Shown piece by piece: positions 20,314 through 54,500 of a DNA stretch of 64,000 bases; positions within the stretch are counted from its first letter, which is position 1, and the number at the start of each line of letters is the position of its first letter. The DNA is taken from contig JAGTXO010000059.1 in the NCBI GenBank assembly GCA_019448385.1, forward strand, positions 142,392 to 206,391. The letters run 5' to 3'. A program made the translations under genes and the position numbers. The stretch comes from Diacronema lutheri. Taxonomy: Eukaryota > Haptophyta > Pavlovophyceae > Pavlovales > Pavlovaceae. Under the pieces are notes generated by a model. It was not told the origin of the DNA, did not search any database, and saw only the letters and a list, made by a program, of their open reading frames with translations.

Positions 20314-23300
20314 CCGGGCGTCCGGCGACTCGCAACGGCCGCCGAGGCGGCGGAGCGGCAGCGGCCGCAAGCCGTTACATCGACGGGCGCGCCCCTTGAG
20401 TTCCCGTCCTTTGCAGAGATCCGCGCAGAGCACGTGCGTCCGTTCTGCGCCGCGGCCACCGCGCGCCGCGCCGAGCTCGCCGCCGCCGCGCGCGCGCGGC
20501 TCGCGCGCGGCGCGCCCGTGTGGGCGGCGGGCGCGGGCGCGGGCGGGCTCGCGTGGGGCGGCTCGCGCGACACGTCGGCTCACGCGACGTACGGGTTTGA
20601 GGAAGTGCTCGCCGAGCTGCAACGGCCCTTTGTCCTACACACGAAGGACGTGCTTGCGTCGCTTGGTGGGTGCTGCGTGGCGCGATCGCGCGGGCGGGGG
20701 TCGGGGGTGAGGGCGGGGGCGGGGTTGAGGGAGGGTGGGTGGAGGGTGAGGGCAAGGACGGAGGTTGGGGGTGAGGGCGTGGGCGGGCGCGAGGGCGGTG
20801 TTTGGGATGAGGGCGAGAACGGGGGTTGGGGCAAGGGCGAGGGCGAGGGCAAGAACGGTGTTGGGGATGAGGGCAAGGGCGGGGGTTGGGGGTGAGCGCG
20901 AGGGCAGGGGTTGGGGCAAGGGCGAGGGCGGGCGCGAGGGCGGGCGCGAGGGCAAGGGCGCGCCACGCCGCGCCGCACTGCGACCGAGCGCACGTGGCGC
21001 TGGCCCCTTGCGTGGCGTTTAAAAACAATCTTCTCCCCCCTCCCCCCTCTCCCCCCCCTCCCTTCACATACGCACAAACACACGCACACCGCCCCTTTTC
21101 AAATCGGCGTCCATGCGTAAGGCGCCTTTGTCGCCGTCTTCCCGTTTCGAGCCATCGAGCAGCGGCTCGGGCCCGACGACACCGCCGCGCTCGCCGCGGA
21201 GCTCACCGCCGCGCCGCTCGCGCGCCTTCTCGGCTTCCTCGCGCTCCTTCTCCACGATCTCCACGTGTTGCCCTGCACGCCGCCCGCGCCCGCGCCGACG
21301 GCCGCGCCCGCGCGCGCGCGCTCACCGACGCGCGGCACGGACGCGTGCGTCGGCGTCGGCACGCCCGCGGCGGGCGGCGCGCGGGGCGTGCTGGGCGGCG
21401 CGCATTCCCGCGCACGCTGCTGTTCGCTCGGCGTGCCGTCGGAACCCGCGACACCGTGCGCGTCCGCGCGCGGCCCGGACTCCGCACCGGACAGCGAGGA
21501 GGGAGTCCGGACGCGCTCACCCTCCGCGCGCGCGGCCAGGCCTGCGAGCGCTCGCGGTACTGGCGCGGTTACGACGGCCGTTACGACGGCCGTTACGACG
21601 GCCGTTACGACGGCCGTTACGGCCGGCAGCGCGGCGCACGCCCAGCGCGGCGCCGGCGCTGTCGGCTTGGGCGACGCCGCCGACGTCGCCGCTGACGACG
21701 CGAGCGAGGCGGGCGGCACCGCCGCGCTGCTCGCGGCGGTGCAGCAGGGCTTCGTGACGTTACAGGCGCGCATGCGACAGAGCCGGCAGCGGTTACTCCA
21801 ATGGTTGCCGGTGCTCGTCCTTTCGCTGCGCGTGTGCGCCGAGGCGCTCATTCGCATCGCGCTGCCAAAGTGGTGCGTGCCGTGTGTCCCTTTGCACCAC
21901 CTTTATTGCCCCTGCTCCCCCTCCCAGCGCGCTGCCAAAGTGGTGCGTGCCGTGTGTCCCTCTGCACCACCTTTATTGCCCCTGCTCCCCCTCCCAGCGC
22001 GCTGCCAAAGTGGTGCGTGCCGTGTGTCCCTTTGCACCACCTCTGTTGCCCCTGCTTCCCCTCCCAGCGCGCTGCCAAAGTGGTGCGTGCCGTGTGTCCC
22101 TTTGCACCACCTTTATCGCCCCTGCTTCCCCTCCCAGCGCGCTGCCAAAGTGGTGCATGCCGTGTGTCCCTTTGCACCACCTTTATTGCCCCTGCTTCCC
22201 CTCCCAGCGCGCTGCCAAAGTGGTGCATGCCGTGTGTCCCTTTGCACCACCTTTATCGCCCCTGCTTCCCCTCCCAGCGCGCTGCCAAAGTGGTGCATGC
22301 CGTGTGTCCCTTTGCACCACCTTTATTGCCCCTGCTTCCCCTCCCAGCGCGCTGCCAAAGTGGTGCGTGCCGTGTGTCCCTTTGCACCACTTTTATTGCC
22401 CCTGCTTCCCCTCCCAGCGCGCTGCCAAAGTGGTGCGTGCCGTGTGTCCCTTTGCACCACCTTTATTGCCCCTGCTTCCCCTCCCAGCGCGCTGCCAAAG
22501 TGGTGCGTGCCGTGTGTCCCTTTGCACCACCTTTATCGCCCCTGCTTCCCCTCCCAGCGCGCTGCCAAAGTGGTGCGTGCCGTGTGTCCCTTTGCACCAC
22601 CTTTATTGCCCCTGCTTCCCCTCCCAGCGCGCTGCCAAAGTGGTGCATGCCGTGTGTCCCTTTGCACCACCTTTATTGCCCCTGCTCCCCCTCCCAGCGC
22701 GCTGCCAAAGTGGTGCGTGCCGTGTGTCCCTTTGCACCACCTTTATTGCCCCTGCTCCCCCTCCCAGCGCGCTGCCAAAGTGGTGCGTGCCGTGTGTCCC
22801 TTTGCACCACCTCTGTTGCCCCTGCTTCCCCTCCCAGCGCGCTGCCAAAGTGGTGCGTGCCGTGTGTCCCTTTGCACCACCTTTATCGCCCCTGCTTCCC
22901 CTCCCATCGCGCTGCCAAAGTGGTGCGTGCCGTGTGTCCCTTTGCACCACCTTTATTGCCCCTGCTTCCCCTCCCAGCGCGCTGCCAAAGTGGTGCGTGC
23001 CGTGTGTCCCTTTGCACCACCTTTATTGCCCCTGCTTCCCCTCCCAGCGCGCTGCCAAAGTGGTGCGTGCCGTGTGTCCCTTTGCACCACCTTTATCGCC
23101 CCTGCTTCCCCTCCCAGCGCGCTGCCAAAGTGGTGCGTGCCGTGTGTCCCTTTGCACCACCTTTATTGCCCCTGCTTCCCCTCCCAGCGCGCTGCCAAAG
23201 TGGTGCGTGCCGTGTGTCCCTTTGCACCACCTTTATTGCCCCTGCTTCCCCTCCCAGCGCGCTGCCAAAGTGGTGCGTGCCGTGTGTCCCTTTGCACCAC

Positions 23301-24735
23301 CTTTATCGCCCCTGCTTCCCCTCCCAGCGCGCTGCCAAAGTGGTGCGTGCCGTGTGTCCCTTTGCACCACCTTTATTGCCCCTGCTTCCCCTTCCAGCGC
23401 GCTGCCAAAGTGGTGCGTGCCGTGTGTCCCTTTGCACCACCTTTATCGCCCCTGCTTCCCCTCCCAGCGCGCGCTCAGTGCGCCAAGCCAGGTTGCCCCC
23501 CCCCCCCCCCCCCCCCTACCCCCAACCACCCCACCCACCCATTTACCCCCCGGCGCAGGTGGTCGACCCGCCACGGCGAGGAGACGATGGCTGCAGCGCA
23601 CACCACAATCACCGCCATATTCGACCACGATGGCTACCGTGCGCACATTCCCGCCCTCTCCTCGTCCACCGCCGCCGTGCGCGCGTCGCTCCGGCGCGAC
23701 GTGCGCGCGTCGCTTCGGCCGAGCGCGGCGCAGCGCGAGGCAGGGTACCACGGCACGTCGCACCTGCTCCAGTTCGCCCTGCCGGAGACGGCGTTGCGCC
23801 GGCTGCCGCCGACCGAACGCAACGCCGCCATCGCCGCCGCCGCCGGCGTTCACGCCACCGCCACCGGCAGCGGCGCGCCCGACGTGGCGTGCACAGCCGC
23901 CGGCGCGGCCGTGGCGGGCGCGGCGGCCGCCGCGGCTCGCGCGCTCGCCGCGACGGTCGGCGCGAATGCGCGATCGCGCGAGCACGTGCGCCGCCTGGCG
24001 CTGCTGCATGTGGCGTCGCGCGCGGCGCGCGCCGGGGGCGCAGGCGGCGCGGGCGGCGGTGGCGGCGCGCGCGGCGCGCCGTCGCCGCCGCCGGCCGGCG
24101 GCGGCGGCGGCGGCGCGGCCGCGGCGGCGCCGGCGAGCGGCGCGGCCGCCGCTGCCGCCGCCGCGCGTCGCGCGGCGGCGGCGACGGAGGCGGCGGTCAT
24201 GCGACGTGTGTTACCCGCACAGCGTGCGGGCGGCAGCGGCGGTGGCGGCGGTGGCCGCGGCGTGGGCGCGCACGCCGTCGACGACGAGCTTTCCGACGGA
24301 GGTGATGATCGTGGTGGCGTGCGCGGGCGCGGCACGGACGGCGCGCGCCACGCGCCGCGGGCAGCGACGTGGCGGTCCGGGTCCGGTGGCGCGGCGGTGC
24401 GGAGTCCGGAGGAGCACATCGCGCATGGGCGCGCTGCGCTCGAGACGCGCGGGCGGCCGTGGCGCGGCGCGGGCCCGGGCTCGGAGGAGTTGGCGGCGCT
24501 CGCTGCGCGCTCGCCCGTGCGCTTCGGCCTGGACACACCCGCGCGCCGGCCGGCGGCCGCGGCGGCGCCGCGGCCGGCGGCGCGCGCGGGTGGCGAGGGG
24601 GGCGCGCGCGGCGCGACGGTCGACACGCCGGGCCGTGAATCGCTTGCGCCGTCCGTGCGCTCTGGCGACGTGCCGTTCCGCGTGCCGCGACGCCGCAGCG
24701 CCGGCGCTGCTGGGCTGTCGGCGCGCGTGGTGTGA
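19041..24735 (+). CDS. Unknown conserved-looking protein, 5 exons (952 aa)
   Basis: Exons: 19041-19192, 19661-19721, 19909-20665, 21122-21833 and 23559-24735. Phases agree. Non-repetitive segments read as real domains: LVVPPITIPLRPLDNPADPP, EGFVEHVKNE joined to YAVHYLEAIGVAPTRANLDM, HVPKSELVVTWAWRARGWPA, TYGFEEVLAELQRPFVLHTK, FVAVFPFRAIEQRLGPDD, LARLLGFLALLLHDLHVLP, and in the last exon HTTITAIFDHDGYRAHIPAL and HLLQFALPETALRRLPPTER. Between them lie Gly/Ala-rich linkers. LLGFLALLLHDLHVL could be a membrane or buried helix. I do not recognise the family, and the conservation is my impression only. Intron 1 could instead use a GC donor at 19214. The intron 4 acceptor is at 23558. An in-frame ATG at 19023 would add six residues. 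Confidence 0.6.
19778..19908 (+). repeat. C-tract and CCAACCGCCG repeats in intron 2 of the unknown gene
   Basis: A pure-C run of about 39 bases at 19782-19820, then four to five copies of CAACCGCCGCC ending at the acceptor CGCGCAG (19908). Confidence 0.85.
21861..23470 (+). repeat. 70-bp minisatellite, 23 copies, no length change
   Basis: Each copy starts GCTGCCAAAGTGGTGCGTGC and ends TTCCCCTCCCAGCGC. Copies start at 21861, 21931, 22001 and so on to 23401, exactly 70 bp apart. Only single-base variants occur, for example GTGCATGCC for GTGCGTGCC, TTTATCGCC for TTTATTGCC, CTCTGTTGCC, and CTCCCC for CTTCCC. It fills intron 4 (21834-23558) of the gene at 19041-24735. The unit contains both a donor-like GTGCGTGC and an acceptor-like CTCCCAG. 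Confidence 0.97.
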
Positions 24736-39924: not shown

Positions 39925-42900
39925 GCCTCTTCTGCCGGCAGCGGGAGGCTCAGCGACGCTCGGGTCACTACCAAGCGCGAAAACGCTAGAGAACAGTCTA
40001 TGGGCGACGCTGCGATCCGACCTTCTGTGCGCGCGCGCTCCCGCGAAGTGCTGCGCTGCGCTCGCCTTCCGTTTGCTCCAGCCCGGCCCCTTCCCGCGAC
40101 ATGCTGCGCGGTGCTCGCCTTCCGTTTGCTCCAGCCCGGCCCCTTCCCGCGAAAAGCTGCGCGGTGCTCGCCTGCCTCACAGACCACGCGCGCGCATGGC
40201 CGCGCGTTGCGCGCATCGCTGCCGCTCGGCCGCCCGTGTAGGTACGTCGCGTGGGCGTTAATGGGCGGGAAAACAAAGGCCGCCGCTCAGGCGCAGCTGT
40301 TGCGCGCAGGGCTGCCGAGGGTGGCGGCGGCAGTTTTTGAGCGGCTTGACTGGGTGGAGCCGGCCAATGAGGCGACGGGGGGCCGCGGCGGTGCACGTGG
40401 CGGTGGGGCCGACGGCGATGGAGAGTCGGACGACGGCGACGGCGACGGCGACGGCGATGTCGACGGTGACGGTGACGTCGATGGTGACGGTGACGGTGAC
40501 GGTGACGATGACGATGACAGTGACGGTGAGGGCGACAGCGCCGCCGCCAGTGACAGCAGCGACACCGACGCGTTCGGCCATGGCGAACGGCCATTTGCCG
40601 TTGCGCCCGCGTCCGCTGCGTTCTCTGCGGCGCGGCGTGCGACCGCCGGCGCCGCTGGCGCCACCGACGCCGCCGACGCCGGCACGCGCGGCGTGGACGC
40701 GCGCACCGACCGCACTCGGGGCGGGGGCGCGCACATCGACCGCGTGGGCGGTGAGGCGCACGGCGAGGCGCACGGCGAGGCGCGCGGCGAGGCGGACGGC
40801 GTGGCGCACGGCGAGGCGCACGGCGCGGCGGACGAGGAGGCGGACGGCGAGGCGGACGGCGAGGCGCACGGCATGGGGTGCGCTTGCAACGCGCTGTCGT
40901 CTCTACAGATCCAACTGCTGCGCACACTGCAGGCGCTATGCGAGAAAGATGGCATGGGGTGCGCGCGCTCGCACGGATGGCATTGCAACGCATCGCAAGG
41001 ATGTGCGGCGGCGGGAGCCCCCGTCAGCCATCGCAAGGATGGCATGGGGTGCGGCGGCGGGAGCCCCCGTCAGCCATCGCAAGGATGGCATGGGGTGCGG
41101 CGGCGGGAGCCCCCGTCAGCCATCGCAAGGATGGCATGGGGTGCGGCGGCGGGAGCCCCCGTCAGCCATCGCAAGGATGGCATGGGGTGCGGCGGCAAGA
41201 GCCCCCGTCAGCCATCGCAAGGATGGCATGGGGTGCGGCGGCGGGAGCCCCCGTCAGCCATCGCAAGGATGGCATGGGGTGCGGCGGCGGGAGCCCCCGT
41301 CAGCCATCGCAACGCATCACACCGCGCCGCCTCGTCGCCGCGACGGCCCCCGGTGCCGCCATCGCCCGGCGCCGCGGTGGTGGCGCGCCGGTCGACGCGC
41401 TGCTCCGCGCCCGCCCGTGGCATTGGCTGCCCTCCCGCTGCACGGGCAATGCGCCCTGCATTTCACTGCACCGCTGAGCCGCTTGGCTGCCCACCCGTGG
41501 CATTGGCTGCCCTCCAATCGGAGGATGTAGCTGACCCGCTTGCCTGCACGCTTGCCCGCCCGCTCGCCCGCCCGCCCGCCTGCCCGCCCGCCCGCCCGCC
41601 GCATGCCGCGCCTCCGCCAGCTACACGGCCCATCGCTGCCTCCTCTCCGCCACCGAGCAGCGCGCCGTGTACGGCGAGGCACTCTGCCTCGAACGGCGCG
41701 CGCGCGGGCCCGACTCCCTGGACACGGCGTACGCCGGCGCGTTGGACGCCAGCGTGCCCGTGCTGCGCGGTGGCGAACACGGCCGCGGTGACGGCGGGGC
41801 GGCGGACGGCGGTGACGGCGGGGCCGCGGATGGCGGTGGCGGCGGTGACGGCGGGGTCGCGGATGGCGGTGGCGGCGGTGACGGCGGGGCCGCGGATGGC
41901 GGTGGCGGCGGCGCGGCGGGCGGCGATGGCGGCGGCGATTGCCGCGGCGAGCGCGAAGGCGAGCGCGAAGGCGAGCGCGAAGACGACGACAGGAAGGAAG
42001 ACGTTGGCTTGCTCGTGCGGATCGTGCGCCTGCTCATCGCACAAAGCCCAAACTCGCCGTGCGTGACGCGCCGCCCGCGCGGCTCTGCACCGCGCCGCGT
42101 CACGCCGTGACCTTGTCTCGCTGTGACCGCGCCCCACTGTCCCATCGCCGCACAGTGGGACAGTGTCCCACTTCCCCACTTTGCGCCGCGGTTGCGCCTT
42201 TTGGCCGGCCTCCGCGCGGACGGCTGCCAGCGCCGCGGCCGTGCCGACCCGCCGCGCCGCTCCGCGCACGCGCACTCATATGAACACACGTGCGCGTGCG
42301 CCCCCCCCCCCCCCCCCCCTTCCCCCCGCGGCGCCCCGCCCCTTCCCCCCCCCCCCCCCCCCCTCCCCCCCTTGCGCGCCCACAATGTGTACATGTTTTT
42401 GGTTCGGCCGCCATGCGACCAACCCTGTCTGCCCCTTTCTCCCTCCCGCGCCAGCTATCGCTATTGGCTCGCTGGCTGCGTGCACAAGTGGCTCCAGGCC
42501 ACGTCGCCGCCTGAGCAGGCCTTTGTCGCCGCCATCCCGGGCTTCCTTCCCGCTCTCGTGCGTATGGTCGCACACTCGAGCGCTGACTGTTACACCATGC
42601 GCCAGGTGTGCCCAGGGGCGCTAAATGCCCGCCTTACCCCTGCTCTCCTTGTCCTGCCCCACCCCACTCCACCCTCTCCCCCCCTATACACCCGCCCCTG
42701 CCCATGCACTGCCCCCGGCGCATTTCGCGAACTACATAAAGGGCAACGGCGGGGGCAAGGCGAGCTTGGCAAGCTCAACCGCCCAACCGCCCAACCGCCC
42801 AACCGCCCAGGTGCAATTCGACCTCCTCGGCGAGCTCGTCAAGTTCTCGCCCGCGCTCCTCGCGGCCGTCGAGGCCGAGGCCGCGCGCCAGCGGCTGCGC

Positions 42901-45900
42901 CGCCGCTTCCGGGAAGCGACCCGGAAGTTTCCGATCGATTCCTCCGTCTTCCTCCACTGCGTCGCCCTCACGCGCACGCGCCGCGTGCGCCCGCTCGTCA
43001 CGTTCGCGGCGGCCGCCGCGCGCACCGCGGACGTGCACGGCTTTTTCGCGCTGCCGCCCGGCGCGGTCGGCACGCGCGCCGCGGCGGTCAGCGCGGGCGC
43101 GGGCGAGGAGGCGGCCACGCCCGCCGCGGCGGTCAGCGCGGGCGCGGGCGAGAAAGCGGCCGCGCGCGCCGCGGCGGCCGCCGCGCCGGCCGCCACGCCG
43201 CCGCCCGCCGACAACGTGCGCGCAGGCGTCGCAGCCGACGCGCCCGCGATGGCGGCGGCGGCGCAGATGATGGCCGACGGTGGCGCGCGCACGGCCGCGT
43301 CCGGCGAGTCCGGCGAGTCCGGCGAGTCCGGCGAGTCCGGCGAGTCCGGCGAGTCGGCGCTCTCGGCGCGCGCGCCCGCTGCGGCGTACGCCGGCGCGGC
43401 GATGGCGTCCGGGCGCGCCGGACTCGGCGGCGCGCGCGAAGCGGCAACCGTCGCTGGGCGCTGGGCGCCGAGCGGCGGCGACGCCGGCGGCGACATTGGA
43501 GCTACGTGTGAGCTGTGCACCACGTGTGCTGAGCACGATGGCGGCGGTGACAGTGGCGGGGGTGGCGGCGGCAGCGGCGGCGGCGGCGCTGACAGCGGCG
43601 GCGGTGGCGGTGGCGGCGGCGGCGAGCGCGCGCGCGCGCCTGCGCGCGACGGGCAGGCGGACGGCGGCGGCGGTTGCCATGGCACGTGCCCTCCGCCGGG
43701 AAGGCGGAGGGCGGGCGAAGATCGCTGCTGCCCGCACGGCTGCCTATCGCACGGTGCACCGTCCGTCAGTGGCGCGTTACATGCGAGCGCGCAGCGACCG
43801 CAGCCGCCGGCAGCGGCGGAGGCGGAGACACAGCCGACGGCGCGTGCGTACGCGCCGCCCGCTCACTCGCCGCCGCGCGCGCGTGCCGCCGCGTCCACGG
43901 GCGCGGCGCGACGCCACGATGGCGGCGGTACGGGCAGCGATGGCGGCGGTACGGGCAGCGATGGCGGCGGGCGTGACGGCGCGTCTGCGGCGGCGGCGGA
44001 TGGCGACGCGCCGCCGCCGACGCCGCCGCGCGGCGCCTCAGGCGTTCCCGGCGCTTCCGTCGCAGCCGTGGGCGGCGGCGGTGGCGCGGCGGCCGGCGCT
44101 GACCCACCGGCGCGCCTTGCAGGCCGTAGTCCCGCTGCGCCGCCCGCGGCTGCGGCGGGGTTGGGCGCCGCACCGTCTGACTGGGCCGCCGTGCCGGTGG
44201 ACTCCGCGGCCGCGACCGTCACCGCGTCCGTCGCCGCGTGCGCGGCGGCGCGCGCCAGCCGCGTGGCAGGCGCCGCCGTGCCGCCGCCCGTCGCGGCCGC
44301 GCGCGCGGCGCGGGTCTCCCATCAGCCGGGCGCGTTCGGAGCGCTTGCCATGGCTCCGTCCGAGGCGGCGGTTATCCGGCTGCTCGTGCGTGCGGTCGCG
44401 CGCGACCCGGGCGGGTTGTCAATTGAGAACGTGTGCGTCATCAACGGGATGGTGGCGCTCTTCATGGCCGCGCGAGACGGCGGTGGCGATGACGACGACG
44501 GCGGTGGCGACGACGACGACGGCGGCGGCGGCGTGGTGCCGAACGGGCGCGCCCGCGGCGGGGACGGAGGCGGCCAGGGGCCACGTGGACGCGTCGCCGG
44601 CGGCGACGGCGAGGCCGGCGCCGGCGGCCCGGGCGCGCGCGGCGGCGAGGACGCAGCGGGCGCGTCGGGGGCTCACGCGCGCACGAGCGACTGGCGCCAC
44701 GCGGAACCTTCCAGCGGCTCGGATGCGTCCGGCTCGGATGCGTCCGGCTCGGATGCGTCCGGCTCGGATGCGTCCGGCTCGGGTGAGTCCGGCTCGGATG
44801 AGTCCGGCACGGATGAGTCCGGCACGGATGGGTCCGACACGCCGCGCGGGCGCCGCGTGCTCGCCGCCGGTGGCGATGCCGCCGCCGCCGGCGCTGACGC
44901 GGGGGGCAATCCGGGCGCGGCGCGCATGCGCCGCCTGTTTTTAAACGCGCTCGGGCCGCCGCCGCGCGCGCGCGCGCCTCGCGCACTCACGCTCGGCAGC
45001 CGGAGGGGCCGGCAGGCCGGCCACGCGCTCGGCGCGCGCAGTGCCGGTCGCTTCGACGATGGCGTGCGCGCGGGCGGCGGCAGCGGCGCGCGTTGGTGTG
45101 ATGAGGCGGCAGCGCCAGCAGCAGCGCAGCCAATCTCGTCGTTACCGTCGTTACCGTCGTCACCGTCGTCACCGTCGTCACCGTCGTCACCGTCGTCACC
45201 GTCGTTACCGTCGTCGCCGTCGCTGCCGCGCGTCGAGGCTGCAGGGGTCGCCACCTGCGCCGCGGCGCGCGAGGCGGCGTCGGCCGGCGCCGCCTGCCCG
45301 CCGCGTGGGTCGCACGATGGCGGCGGCGATGGCGGCTACGATGGCGGCGGCGATGGCGGCTACGATGGCGGCGGCGATGGCGGCTACGATGGCGGCGACG
45401 GCACCGCAGCCATGCGCAGCCGCGCGTGTGCGCCCGGTGCCGCGCGCGCACCCACGCGCGCTCCGCTCGCTCTGTCGCCGCCATCGCCCGCCATGGACGG
45501 CGCGCTGCCCGACGCTGCCTACGCGCGCGACGGCGACGGCGATGGCGCGGGCGCGGGCTTGCGGGGCGCGCGCAGCGAGGCGACGAACGGTGGCGCGCGC
45601 ACGCTCGCGCCCGCGTCACCACGCGCCGGCGCACGCAACGCGCCGCCATGGGTCTTTTCAGCGGGTGCGCTGGGCATTATGTCTCGCGCCGCTTCGGCGC
45701 GCCACGCGCGTGAGCGCAGGAACGGGCGACCGCAGCAGCGCGCGATGGGCGGCGCGGCGGACGGCGGCGCGGACGCGCGTGCGGACGATGGCGGGTGCGC
45801 TGGCGCGGTTTCGTCATTCGCCAGCATGGCGGTCGCTGGCACGCCCGCGTTGGCAGCCAACGGCGCGGCCGAGTCCACGCAGGTGCGACACTGCGCGTCG

Positions 45901-46200
45901 CAGTCCTCCGGGGCGGCGGCCGCTAGCGCGCACGTGCTGCAGGCCGACCACTGCGCGTCGCCGCCTTTGAGCGGCGCGGCGCGACCAGCCCGCGCCCCGC
46001 GCGCCCGATCGAAGGGGACGCGCCTGCGTCGCAAATTCCTCGCGCAGCTGCGCTTTTGGCGCGAGTTTTACGCGGGGCACGCTTACGAGCGGCGCTTTCT
46101 CGAGTTCTCGTCGATTGTGCCGTTTGCCGTCTGGGACGAGACCGTGCGCCAGCTCGAGGCGCTGGCGCGCTGTCCTAGGCGCGCGCCAGGCGGGCACTGA
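36604..46200 (+). CDS. TRPC4AP-like protein (TRUSS family), 6 exons, greatly enlarged
   Basis: In animals TRPC4AP is a substrate receptor of DDB1-CUL4 ubiquitin ligase. Exons: 36604-37473, 38228-40026, 40242-40958, 41621-42058, 42455-42605 and 42811-46200. The total is 7365 nt, giving 2454 aa, against about 800 in animals. Family-like blocks appear in order: [50 protein letters not shown] joined to [40 protein letters not shown] joined to [71 protein letters not shown]; and a C-terminal [20 protein letters not shown] with [19 protein letters not shown]. The extra length is low-complexity Ala/Gly/Asp/Ser sequence, including [23 protein letters not shown], and ASGSD runs in the last exon. The start could also be ATG 36616. 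Confidence 0.85.
37546..38056 (+). repeat. 15-bp G-rich minisatellite in intron 1 of the TRPC4AP-like gene
   Basis: About 33 tandem units of GGGCGGAGGGCGAGG with occasional indels and GATGG variants. It is purine/G-rich on the coding strand, unlike the other intron arrays, and has many runs of three or more G, so quadruplex formation is possible. A pure-C tract of about 33 bases (38143-38175) follows before the acceptor. Confidence 0.93.
40054..40170 (+). repeat. 53-bp duplication in intron 2 of the TRPC4AP-like gene
   Basis: Two full copies of CTCGCCTTCCGTTTGCTCCA plus GCCCGGCCCCTTCCCGCGA and the rest, at about 40061 and 40114, with a degenerate third start (GTGCTCGCCTGCCTCACAG) ending in an AG. 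Confidence 0.85.
40947..41316 (+). repeat. 46-bp repeat recreating the exon 3 donor, 6 full copies
   Basis: Units have the core GATGGCATGGGGTGCGGCGG and continue GGAGCCCCCGTCAGCCATCG. The copies' GGCATGGGG words start at 41041, 41087, 41133, 41179, 41225 and 41271. The exon 3/intron 3 junction itself reads GATGGCATGG|GTGCGCG (break after 40958), so each unit carries a copy of the exon end plus 5' splice site. Partial copies lie at 40976-41036. Confidence 0.93.
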
Positions 46201-51554: not shown

Positions 51555-54500
51555 ATGGCGCCGCCGCCGCCTCCAGAGCACAAGGCGCGCACGTCGCTCC
51601 TTGTCTGCTCGCGCCACCGCTGCGCGCTCGACGCGTACGTCGTCGCGAAGGCCGGGCCCAACCACGGCCGGACGTTCGTGCGATGCGGCGGGAACGGCTA
51701 CTCGCGCTGGCAGTGCGCCCTCTACTGCTTCTGGTCGGATTTGCCATGGCAGGCGTGGCAGCGCGGCGAGCAGCCGGCCTTTTCGATCAACCCGCACCCC
51801 GTCTACCAGCCACCGCCACCGACTGGTTGCGATGCCGACGCTCGCGCGCGCGGCGTGACGGATGGCGCGCGCGCGTGCAGCGCGCCGCCGGCCGCGCCGC
51901 CGTGCGACGCGGACGGCGGCGGCGCTGCCGCGCCGCGACCACACGACGACGTGGCCGCGCTGCGCTTAACAGAGGCCGTCGTCCAAGCCTGCGCTCTCGA
52001 CGCGCGGCTGAGCCACGATGGCGGCCCGGCTGCGCAGAGAGCGGAGGCGCGAGCCGCGGACGGCGCGGCGCGCTCGCGCTCGCCGCCGCTCAACGCGGGT
52101 GCGCTGTCCGTCCCAGGTGCCACAGATGCCTGCTTGCCGTGCGCCACGCCCCTCGTTGATGAGCGCGCCCTGCACGCGCCGCCGCCCTACGGCCCCAACC
52201 TACTGCAACCCGCAGTGCTTGGGCCGTTGCGCTGGGCCCCGCTGCCGCAGGCGGCAGCGCGCGCGCCGCCGCACCCGCAGGCGCCTGCGCGGCTGCAGTG
52301 CGGGCCGCCGCTGCCGGCGCCGTCGCCGATCGGCGCGCTGCCACCGCCGACGCGCCCGCCAGCCCGCGGACACTCGACGCCGCGCGCGCACGCGCCAGCC
52401 GTGCGGGCTGAGGGGACGCTACAATTTTTAACGCGCAGGGCAGACGGTCCGGCCGAGTCCGGCGCGGCGACCGGGGCTGAGGGGACGCTACATGGAACGC
52501 GCAGGGCAGACGGTCCGGCCGAGTCCGGCGCGGCGCAGCCTGGGCTAGCCGCGGCGGCGTGCGCGGCGGCGAGCGCGCCTGCACACTGCGCGAAGCGCAA
52601 GGCGGCTAGTCCGGCTGAGTTGGGTCCGGACGAACGCGCGCGCGCCGCGCCGCGGCGTCCAGGCGCGGCCGGGTGGTCGGCTGGCGCGGCGAGCGACGCG
52701 CGGCTGCTGGCGCACGCGCGCCAGGCGCAGCTGCAGCCGCAGCCCAGCACGCAGCTGCAGCCGCAGCCGCAGCCGCAGTTGCAGCCGCAGCTGCAGCCGG
52801 TGCCGCAGCCGCAGTTGCAGTTGCAGCTGCAAACGCCGCTCGCGCCTGCGCACGCCACACCCCTCCGTCCACGTCCTGAGCCGCTGCCAGTCCGGCGTCC
52901 GACGGGCATGCAATGCCGCCCGGACTCAATGCAGGGCGGTCGCCCGGACCCAGTGCCGGCCGCGCCCGTGTGGCCGCGTGTGGGTAACGCACCCGCCGAA
53001 ACCTCTGCCTGCATCGCCGCCGGGCCCGCCGCGCTCGCCGCGCCCGCCACGCCCGCCGCGCCCGCCATGCCCGCCGCGCCCTCCGCGCACCCGGCGCCAG
53101 CGCCGTGCGCCGCGCCGTCTACGCCCACCGCGGGGTCCGGGCCGCGGTCCGGGCCGCGGTCCGGGCCGCGGTCCGGGCCGCGGTCCGGACCGCGCACGAT
53201 CGCGGAGCTTGGCCTGCCGCGCGACGTGGCCGAGCGCTACGCGGCGGTGTGCAACGTCTCGCAGCTGTGGCCCTGGCAGGTGCGCCGCCCAGTCCGGGCG
53301 CCCGCCGCCCAGTCCGGACGCCCGCCGCCCAGTCCGGGCGCATCGCGAGCGGGGCGCCTGCTTCCCGGGCTTCCGGCTGCCCGCGCCAGCGCGCGAGCGC
53401 GCCGCGCGCTCGTGGGCGCGCAGGGAGGAGGCGCATATCGCGCGCGCCGCCAACAGCGCGCGGCACGGGCGCGCGCGCTTGGCCCTCTGACCGTGCGTGG
53501 CGTGTGTGCGCGCGTATAACGCGTAGCAAAGCAACAAACCAACCAACAAACCAACGCACGGCTTGCGCGCCCTCTCGCCCGCCCTGCGCCGCAGACGCGT
53601 GCGCTCGGGCTGCCTGGCGTTTTAAACGGCAGTGCCGACCTCGTCGCCATCGCTCCTACGTCGGGCGGCAAGTCGCTCGTTGCTGAGGTGCGTGCGACTG
53701 GCCCGTCGCGACCAATCTGGGGCGCCCCGCGCGGTGCGTGCGATTGGCCCGTCGCGACCAATCTGGGGCGCCCCGCGCGGTGCGTGCGACTGGCCCGTCG
53801 CGACCAATCTGGGGCGCCCCGTGCGGTGCGTGCGACTGGCCCGTCGCGACCAATCTGGGGCGCCCCGTGCGGTGCGTGCGACTGGCCCGTCGCGACCAAT
53901 CTGGGGCGCCCCGCGCGGTGCGTGCGACTGGCCCGTCGCGACCAATCTGGGGCGCCCCGCGCAGTCCGTGCGATTGGCCTGTCGCGACCAATCTGGGGCG
54001 CCCCGCGCGGTCCGTGCGACTGGCCCGTCGCGACCAATCTGGGGCGCCCCGCGCGGTGCGTGCGATTGGCCCGTCGCGACCAATCTGGGGCGCCCCGCGC
54101 GGTGCGTGCGACTGGCCCGTCGCGACCAATCTGGGGCGCCCCGCGAGGTGCGTGCGATTGGCCCGTCGCGACCAATCTGGGGCGCTTCGCGCGGTGCGTG
54201 CGACTGGCCCGTCGCGACCAATCTGGGGCGCCCCGCGCGGTCCTCCGTCCGCGTGAGGCGCGCGCGTGCCGCCGCCGCCGCCGCGCTCCGCCATCGCGGC
54301 GCCCATCACGCACGCATGCGTTACGAGCCACGCGCCGCGCGGACGGGCTGTGCCATCGATGTCGGCTCTTATGCTGCTTGCACCCGGACGGCTGGCGCGC
54401 CACGCGGCCGACGCGTCGCCTCTCGCGCGTGCGCCTCTCGCGCGTCCGCGCGTCCGCGCGCAGGCGCCGTTACTGCTCGCAGCGACGCGCGGTCGTCTCG

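Follow-up and report, generated by a model that had tools for sequence, protein, structure and literature searches.

Copies of a predicted 5' splice site within an intronic tandem repeat of Diacronema lutheri, probably a chance overlap of repeat and junction

In a predicted intron of a TRPC4AP-like gene of the haptophyte Diacronema lutheri, we observed a tandem repeat whose units carry the last bases of the preceding exon together with the 5' splice site. The exon end and donor, GATGGCATGGG/GTGCG (the slash marks the junction), span positions 40948-40963 with the donor at 40959, and the 16-nt sequence GATGGCATGGGGTGCG occurs seven times in the window (the whole 64-kb stretch of DNA analyzed, which is the terminal 64 kb of contig C99): at the junction itself (40948) and at 41038, 41084, 41130, 41176, 41222, and 41268. 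The claim of an initial annotation that the intron contains at least six additional junction copies was thus borne out by exact matches, and its division between exon and intron was shifted by one base, given that both the reading frame and the ab initio model place the junction one base later. An ordinary tandem repeat that overlaps a splice site by chance probably explains the copies in the intron.

The + strand gene that includes 40261-46200 matched Pfam family PF12463 (DUF3689), which we take to be tied to TRPC4AP. Exons joined as placed by the reading frame gave an E value of 3.9e-25 (89.3 bits), and single exon pieces scored 14.7 and 22.7 bits, under the family cut-off of 27. A PDB sequence search with a TRPC4AP-like protein as query returned no matches at E ≤ 1. 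For three introns of the gene (40959-41620, 42059-42454, and 42606-42810), frame reading and the unsupervised gene model agreed. A short repeat, CCCAACCGC (42780-42810), extends into the acceptor of the last of these. The GC content of the window was 75%, and the whole genome sequence comprised 43,492,796 bases in 103 contigs; an excerpt of the genome paper for strain NIVA-4/92 gives 43.503 Mb, 103 contigs, and 73.25% GC (PMC8379373). Coordinates of the features are collected in Table 1.

Table 1. Features of the TRPC4AP-like locus and of two further arrays in the window (positions within the 64-kb stretch; a slash marks an exon-intron boundary).
Feature	Position	Strand	Basis
TRPC4AP-like exon, ending in GATGGCATGGG; start codon at 40261 assumed	40261..40958	+	open frame, PF12463, gene model boundary
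In-frame exonic copy GGCATGGGGTGCGC, 81 nt upstream of the one at the junction; donor 9-mer GGG/GTGCGC	40870..40883	+	
Predicted intron, GT-AG, phase 2	40959..41620	+	reading frame and ab initio model
First unit, degenerate, 52 nt; contains the end of the exon and the predicted true donor	40948..40999	+	unit layout
Second unit, 38 nt, without 8 nt of the exon-end copy	41000..41037	+	unit layout
Block of six full-length (46-nt) units, all containing GATGGCATGGGGTGCG; donor copies at 41049, 41095, 41141, 41187, 41233, 41279	41038..41313	+	
CATCGCAA past the last unit, also present where units adjoin; flanking short direct repeat	41305..41312	+	
Next TRPC4AP-like exon	41621..42058	+	reading frame and gene model
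70-bp array, 23 units, each of 15 nt of exon end and a 55-nt GT...AG stretch	21858..23472	+	
POLQ-like 46-bp array, starting one base before donor 53688 of predicted intron 53688-54463	53687..54241	+	

Tandem Repeats Finder (TRF) delimited the array as 41003-41312, with a period of 46, 6.7 copies, and 98% matches. Starting at the junction, one unit of 52 nt and one of 38 nt are followed by six of 46 nt, so that the proposed recurrence of the junction in every 46-bp unit holds for the six 46-nt units and fails for the shortened second one. The junction unit shares its first 16 nt and its terminal CATCGCAAG with the standard units and differs from them in the middle; in all, CATCGCAAG closes seven of the eight units. 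The six full 46-nt units vary at two sites, both within one unit. Of all eight units, the one that holds the junction lies farthest out and has diverged most. The reading frame is open across the array until a stop at 42064. With tandem units in the range of ~10-100 bp inside a predicted intron, the array qualifies as an intronic minisatellite. Comparison of the 374-bp segment 40947-41320 with the 43.5-Mb genome at E ≤ 0.001, by a search that ignores simple repeats and words of very high frequency, retrieved only the segment itself. A dispersed or introner element was rejected as a candidate, the one genome match being the array itself and the core having five copies elsewhere.

Short direct repeats such as CATCGCAA are sites between which tandem duplications arise. 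The copies, their register with the junction, and the flanking short repeat are direct observations, as is the absence of excess junction overlap in the introns sampled below; the duplication mechanism is one that we infer from the sequence. We consider it likely that part of a short GC-rich intron was duplicated in tandem across the 5' splice site, which would give every unit a donor preceded by the final bases of the exon. The duplication probably took place between short direct repeats, CATCGCAA being found both where units adjoin and immediately past the final one. Inner units would later have been multiplied and made uniform by slippage or unequal exchange, with the outer, junction-bearing unit staying divergent. 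The layout of one 52-nt, one 38-nt, and six 46-nt units, the flanking CATCGCAA, the local confinement of the repeat, and a donor overlap at the random level together give this chance-overlap duplication good support. The copy of the core in the upstream coding exon counts against it, given that a duplication confined to the junction leaves a copy 81 nt upstream unexplained.

That exonic copy at 40870 is identical to the predicted real donor over the nine bases around the GT. The 13-nt core GGCATGGGGTGCG has 13 exact copies in the 43.5-Mb genome, eight of them at the TRPC4AP-like locus, and this clustering indicates that they are not due to chance. By alignment score alone, local matches as strong as the 14-nt exonic copy are common in the D. 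lutheri genome, having been found in 477 of 3000 neighboring window pairs on contig C1. The exonic copy might be read as the origin of the intron: coding sequence that held a latent donor, GGCATGGGGTGCGC, would have given rise to a copy 81 nt downstream, this copy would have turned into the donor, and further copying would have formed the intron. The in-frame position of the exonic copy, its shared donor 9-mer, the collinear recurrence of TTGCAACGC at the intron start, and the frame that stays open through the array are consistent with such an origin, and tandem genomic duplication is a recognized route of intron gain, described in an excerpt of a review as the sole proposed mechanism shown in vivo (PMC3443670). 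The units, however, contain neither AGGT nor a good acceptor, and the 14-nt match is unremarkable by score, and we regard this origin as unlikely. If it were true, a single repeat process would have made a donor, an intron, and the growth of that intron in one gene. The direction of copying is a matter for comparison with relatives.

Splice sites were scored as percentiles against 174 other predicted introns, with matrices retrained without the 70-bp array. The copied donors (28th percentile) scored below the predicted real donor at 40959 (52nd percentile). The final acceptor of the intron, which sits beyond the array, fell at the 31st percentile, and three AGs examined in the 46-bp unit reached the 1st, 6th, and 11th percentiles as acceptors; a search of the 46-bp units for AGGT found none. 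These scores identify the copied donors as the weaker ones and the units as being without a good acceptor. The first donor is therefore probably the one that is used, or mainly used, and the copied donors are probably passengers or weak decoys. Splicing from the copies would lengthen the product by 90 to 320 nt: those at 41049 and 41187 would preserve the frame and the remaining protein, adding 90 or 228 nt, and the other four of the six would shift the frame. We consider it distinctly unlikely that the donor was copied from the latent coding donor 81 nt upstream and that further copying then supplied a series of donors, the two in-frame ones being used at times, in which case a single repeat process would make, lengthen, and diversify an intron. 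Very doubtful, too, is the view that the array acts as a reservoir of alternative donors from which length variants or frameshifted transcripts arise; although the copied donors are usable in strength and two of them keep the frame, the majority disrupt it, and intronic arrays in our sample usually lack a donor.

Four arrays clearly carry donors: those of the TRPC4AP-like gene, a POLQ-like gene, a gene with a 70-bp repeat, and an ABC transporter gene. The POLQ-like helicase gene gave a DEAD domain match (E 9e-8) on joined exons. Its donor is GAG/GTGCGTGCG, its 46-bp unit differs in sequence from that of the TRPC4AP-like array, and GGTGCGTGCGA is kept in nine further units. The initial annotation had pointed to the equal period of these two arrays; both are indeed 46 bp, and the agreement is probably a coincidence, given that the listed arrays range from 14 to 72 in period and that the units of the four arrays showed no likeness by eye, as distinct from mutual alignment. 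A meaningful 46-bp period was accordingly rejected. The 70-bp unit consists of five codons plus a 55-nt donor/acceptor stretch, and any donor-acceptor pairing in it therefore stays in frame. GTGCGTG is present in 19 of its 23 units, and the unit acceptor and donor scored at the 76th and 74th percentiles, respectively. The gene model renders this array as 22 mini-introns; it may be either one long intron or many spliced mini-introns. A Pfam search with the two exon pieces that flank it gave no family above the cut-off. At the ABC transporter locus (ABC2_membrane_3, E 6.4e-15; L033, C48:254300-255700), positions 466-690 contain four copies of ~56 bp, each with 20 nt of exon end, the donor, and poly-C.

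The wider sample of introns came from 311.6 kb of two contigs, 197.6 kb of C1 and 114 kb of C99, on which the gene model was trained unsupervised; the models were thus tested on their own training sequence, and the introns are predicted ones. Two introns were set by hand: the 22 mini-introns of the 70-bp array were merged, and the POLQ-like intron, which the model had missed, was added. A set of 207 introns excludes those under 60 nt, near sequence ends, or other than GT-AG, and a set of 177 further omits the right arm of C1 and other duplicates and adds words starting at -1. The ends of C1 (L002-L021) are inverted repeats of ~30 kb, with 761-31058 matching 167341-197600 at 98.7-99.5% identity, and more inverted repeats lie around 71-123 kb; they may be a real palindrome or an assembly artifact.

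Junction-spanning 12-mers recurred at least twice in their own intron for three of the 207 introns, compared with 0.03 expected for junctions swapped between introns; the suggestion that units resemble their own donor more than chance was in this narrow form upheld. For random interior points of the same introns 29.5 recurrences were expected, and in the 177-intron set five junctions recurred compared with 30.7 (P about 3e-14), although this interior-point comparison ignores the intron edge. A random-placement null, which takes the edge into account, gave five donor overlaps versus 4.3 expected (P 0.43) for the 46 arrays of period ≥12 in the 177 introns, three versus 3.8 (P 0.78) for the 27 arrays of period ≥20, and three versus 2.4 (P 0.43) for the 15 arrays of period ≥30. 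Acceptor junctions recurred in their own intron in three of the 177. Across the 207 introns, the repeated fraction was 0.12-0.18 at +60 to +120, 0.039 at +6, and 0.014 at the first intron base; on the exonic side it was 0.005-0.010 at -6 and -12, and no intron showed repetition from -18 to -90. Repetition therefore declines smoothly toward the donor without a peak there. The longest junction-spanning repeats among 187 introns measured 59, 57, 41, 25, 18, and 16 nt, the TRPC4AP-like case being the sixth. At L026 (399-601; C99:132790-132992, coordinates 40399-40601 in the fetched block), the donor junction of a predicted intron lies within a 41-nt stretch that is repeated inside the intron. The TRPC4AP-like array is a clear example of a donor-copying tandem duplication in a short intron, and the D. 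lutheri genome is one in which the frequency of such events can be determined. Within the 311.6 kb sampled, repetition inside the same intron affected ~14-17% of interior intron points and junctions only seldom, rates that provide a baseline for judging claims of intron birth by junction duplication.

Across the whole genome, three GGTGCGTG octamers at gaps of 20-50 gave 95 matches in 17 loci, compared with 54 for the reversed control, and AGGTGCGT arrays gave 16 matches in four loci, compared with none. On these figures, arrays may contain somewhat more donor-like words than expected. Control octamers were permutations of similar local frequency (54 for GGTGCGTG; 58 and 64 for the permuted words): GCGTGGTG yielded 30 matches in six loci (reversed, 52), and GGCGTGTG yielded 116 in at least 14 loci (reversed, 69). 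The genome-wide counts are therefore mixed, GGTGCGTG standing above its reversed control and GCGTGGTG and below GGCGTGTG. A 51-bp-period array with GGCGTGTG in its unit extends over ~8.5 kb at C36:156884-165357. For 11 of the 17 GGTGCGTG loci, sequence was fetched and orientation called by running the gene model on short flanking pieces: the word was sense in an intron at one (the ABC transporter locus), antisense in an intron at nine, and antisense to coding sequence at one (L030). Another sense-oriented occurrence is the window's POLQ-like array. Introns appear C-rich on the sense strand by eye, and a G-rich word may be antisense for that reason alone.

These results bear on whether duplication in D. 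lutheri starts preferentially at exon-intron junctions, for instance as a result of breaks linked to transcription or splicing. The four clear cases and the excess of GGTGCGTG and AGGTGCGT over reversed controls lend themselves to such a rule, which we nevertheless rejected and regard as extremely improbable: array-donor overlap is at the level of random placement, the donor shows no peak, and GGTGCGTG is antisense at ten of the 11 fetched loci. In the introns sampled, donor-containing arrays thus did not prove to be the genome-wide rule that the initial annotation envisaged, and its view that duplication of a junction created the array remains apt locally, where the divergent outer unit fits a founder or an edge, and does not extend to a general origin. 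Gene conversion of the exon end by the array, which would account for the 16-nt identity of junction and units and which had been named as a possible refutation in its recent form, is hardly credible for a junction unit that is outermost, most divergent in its middle, and 52 rather than 46 nt long, with the core present in the upstream coding exon as well.

We found no report of donor-carrying intron arrays in D. lutheri in the literature listings searched, and the excerpted sections of the genome paper contain no discussion of them (PMC8379373). Comparable arrays are already in print, as far as excerpts and titles convey, for human 6-16/G1P3, Cryptococcus, fission yeast, and potato. Turri, Cuin and Porter in 1995 reportedly described, to judge by the title, a minisatellite with multiple splice donors in the human interferon-induced 6-16/G1P3 transcript; its unit is said to be 12 nt, compared with 46 nt in D. 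lutheri. Both are tandem arrays at an exon-intron boundary with donor sequence in the units: in D. lutheri the array is in register with the boundary, the junction lying in the first, degenerate unit, and the units contain plausible donors in six exact 16-mer copies. Several donors serve the human transcript according to that title, whereas those described here are known from sequence alone. By analogy, the human minisatellite appears to be the closest known system in behavior.

The remaining comparisons refer to excerpts of the cited papers. Tandem-repeat introns of fission yeast likewise resemble nearby exons, but species comparison identified those as intron gains (PMC3629103) and their units are 24-bp AGGT units (PMC4974935), whereas the D. 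lutheri units lack AGGT and come from one genome. In the potato RdRp intron a tandem duplication also crossed an exon-intron boundary, although there it was a single duplication that crossed the acceptor side and created a new intron (PMC4974935). Polyubiquitin UBC has a splice site in each tandem unit as well, but its repeats are coding and each dual-specific site is both donor and acceptor (PMC10809524). The repeats of Cryptococcus CNN00420 include exon ends together with intron sequence and were ascribed to duplication or slippage; whole introns were copied there and are spliced, with ESTs, whereas the TRPC4AP-like units comprise the exon end, donor, and intron start only (PMC2395259). CNN00420 is matched more closely by the 70-bp array (21858-23472).
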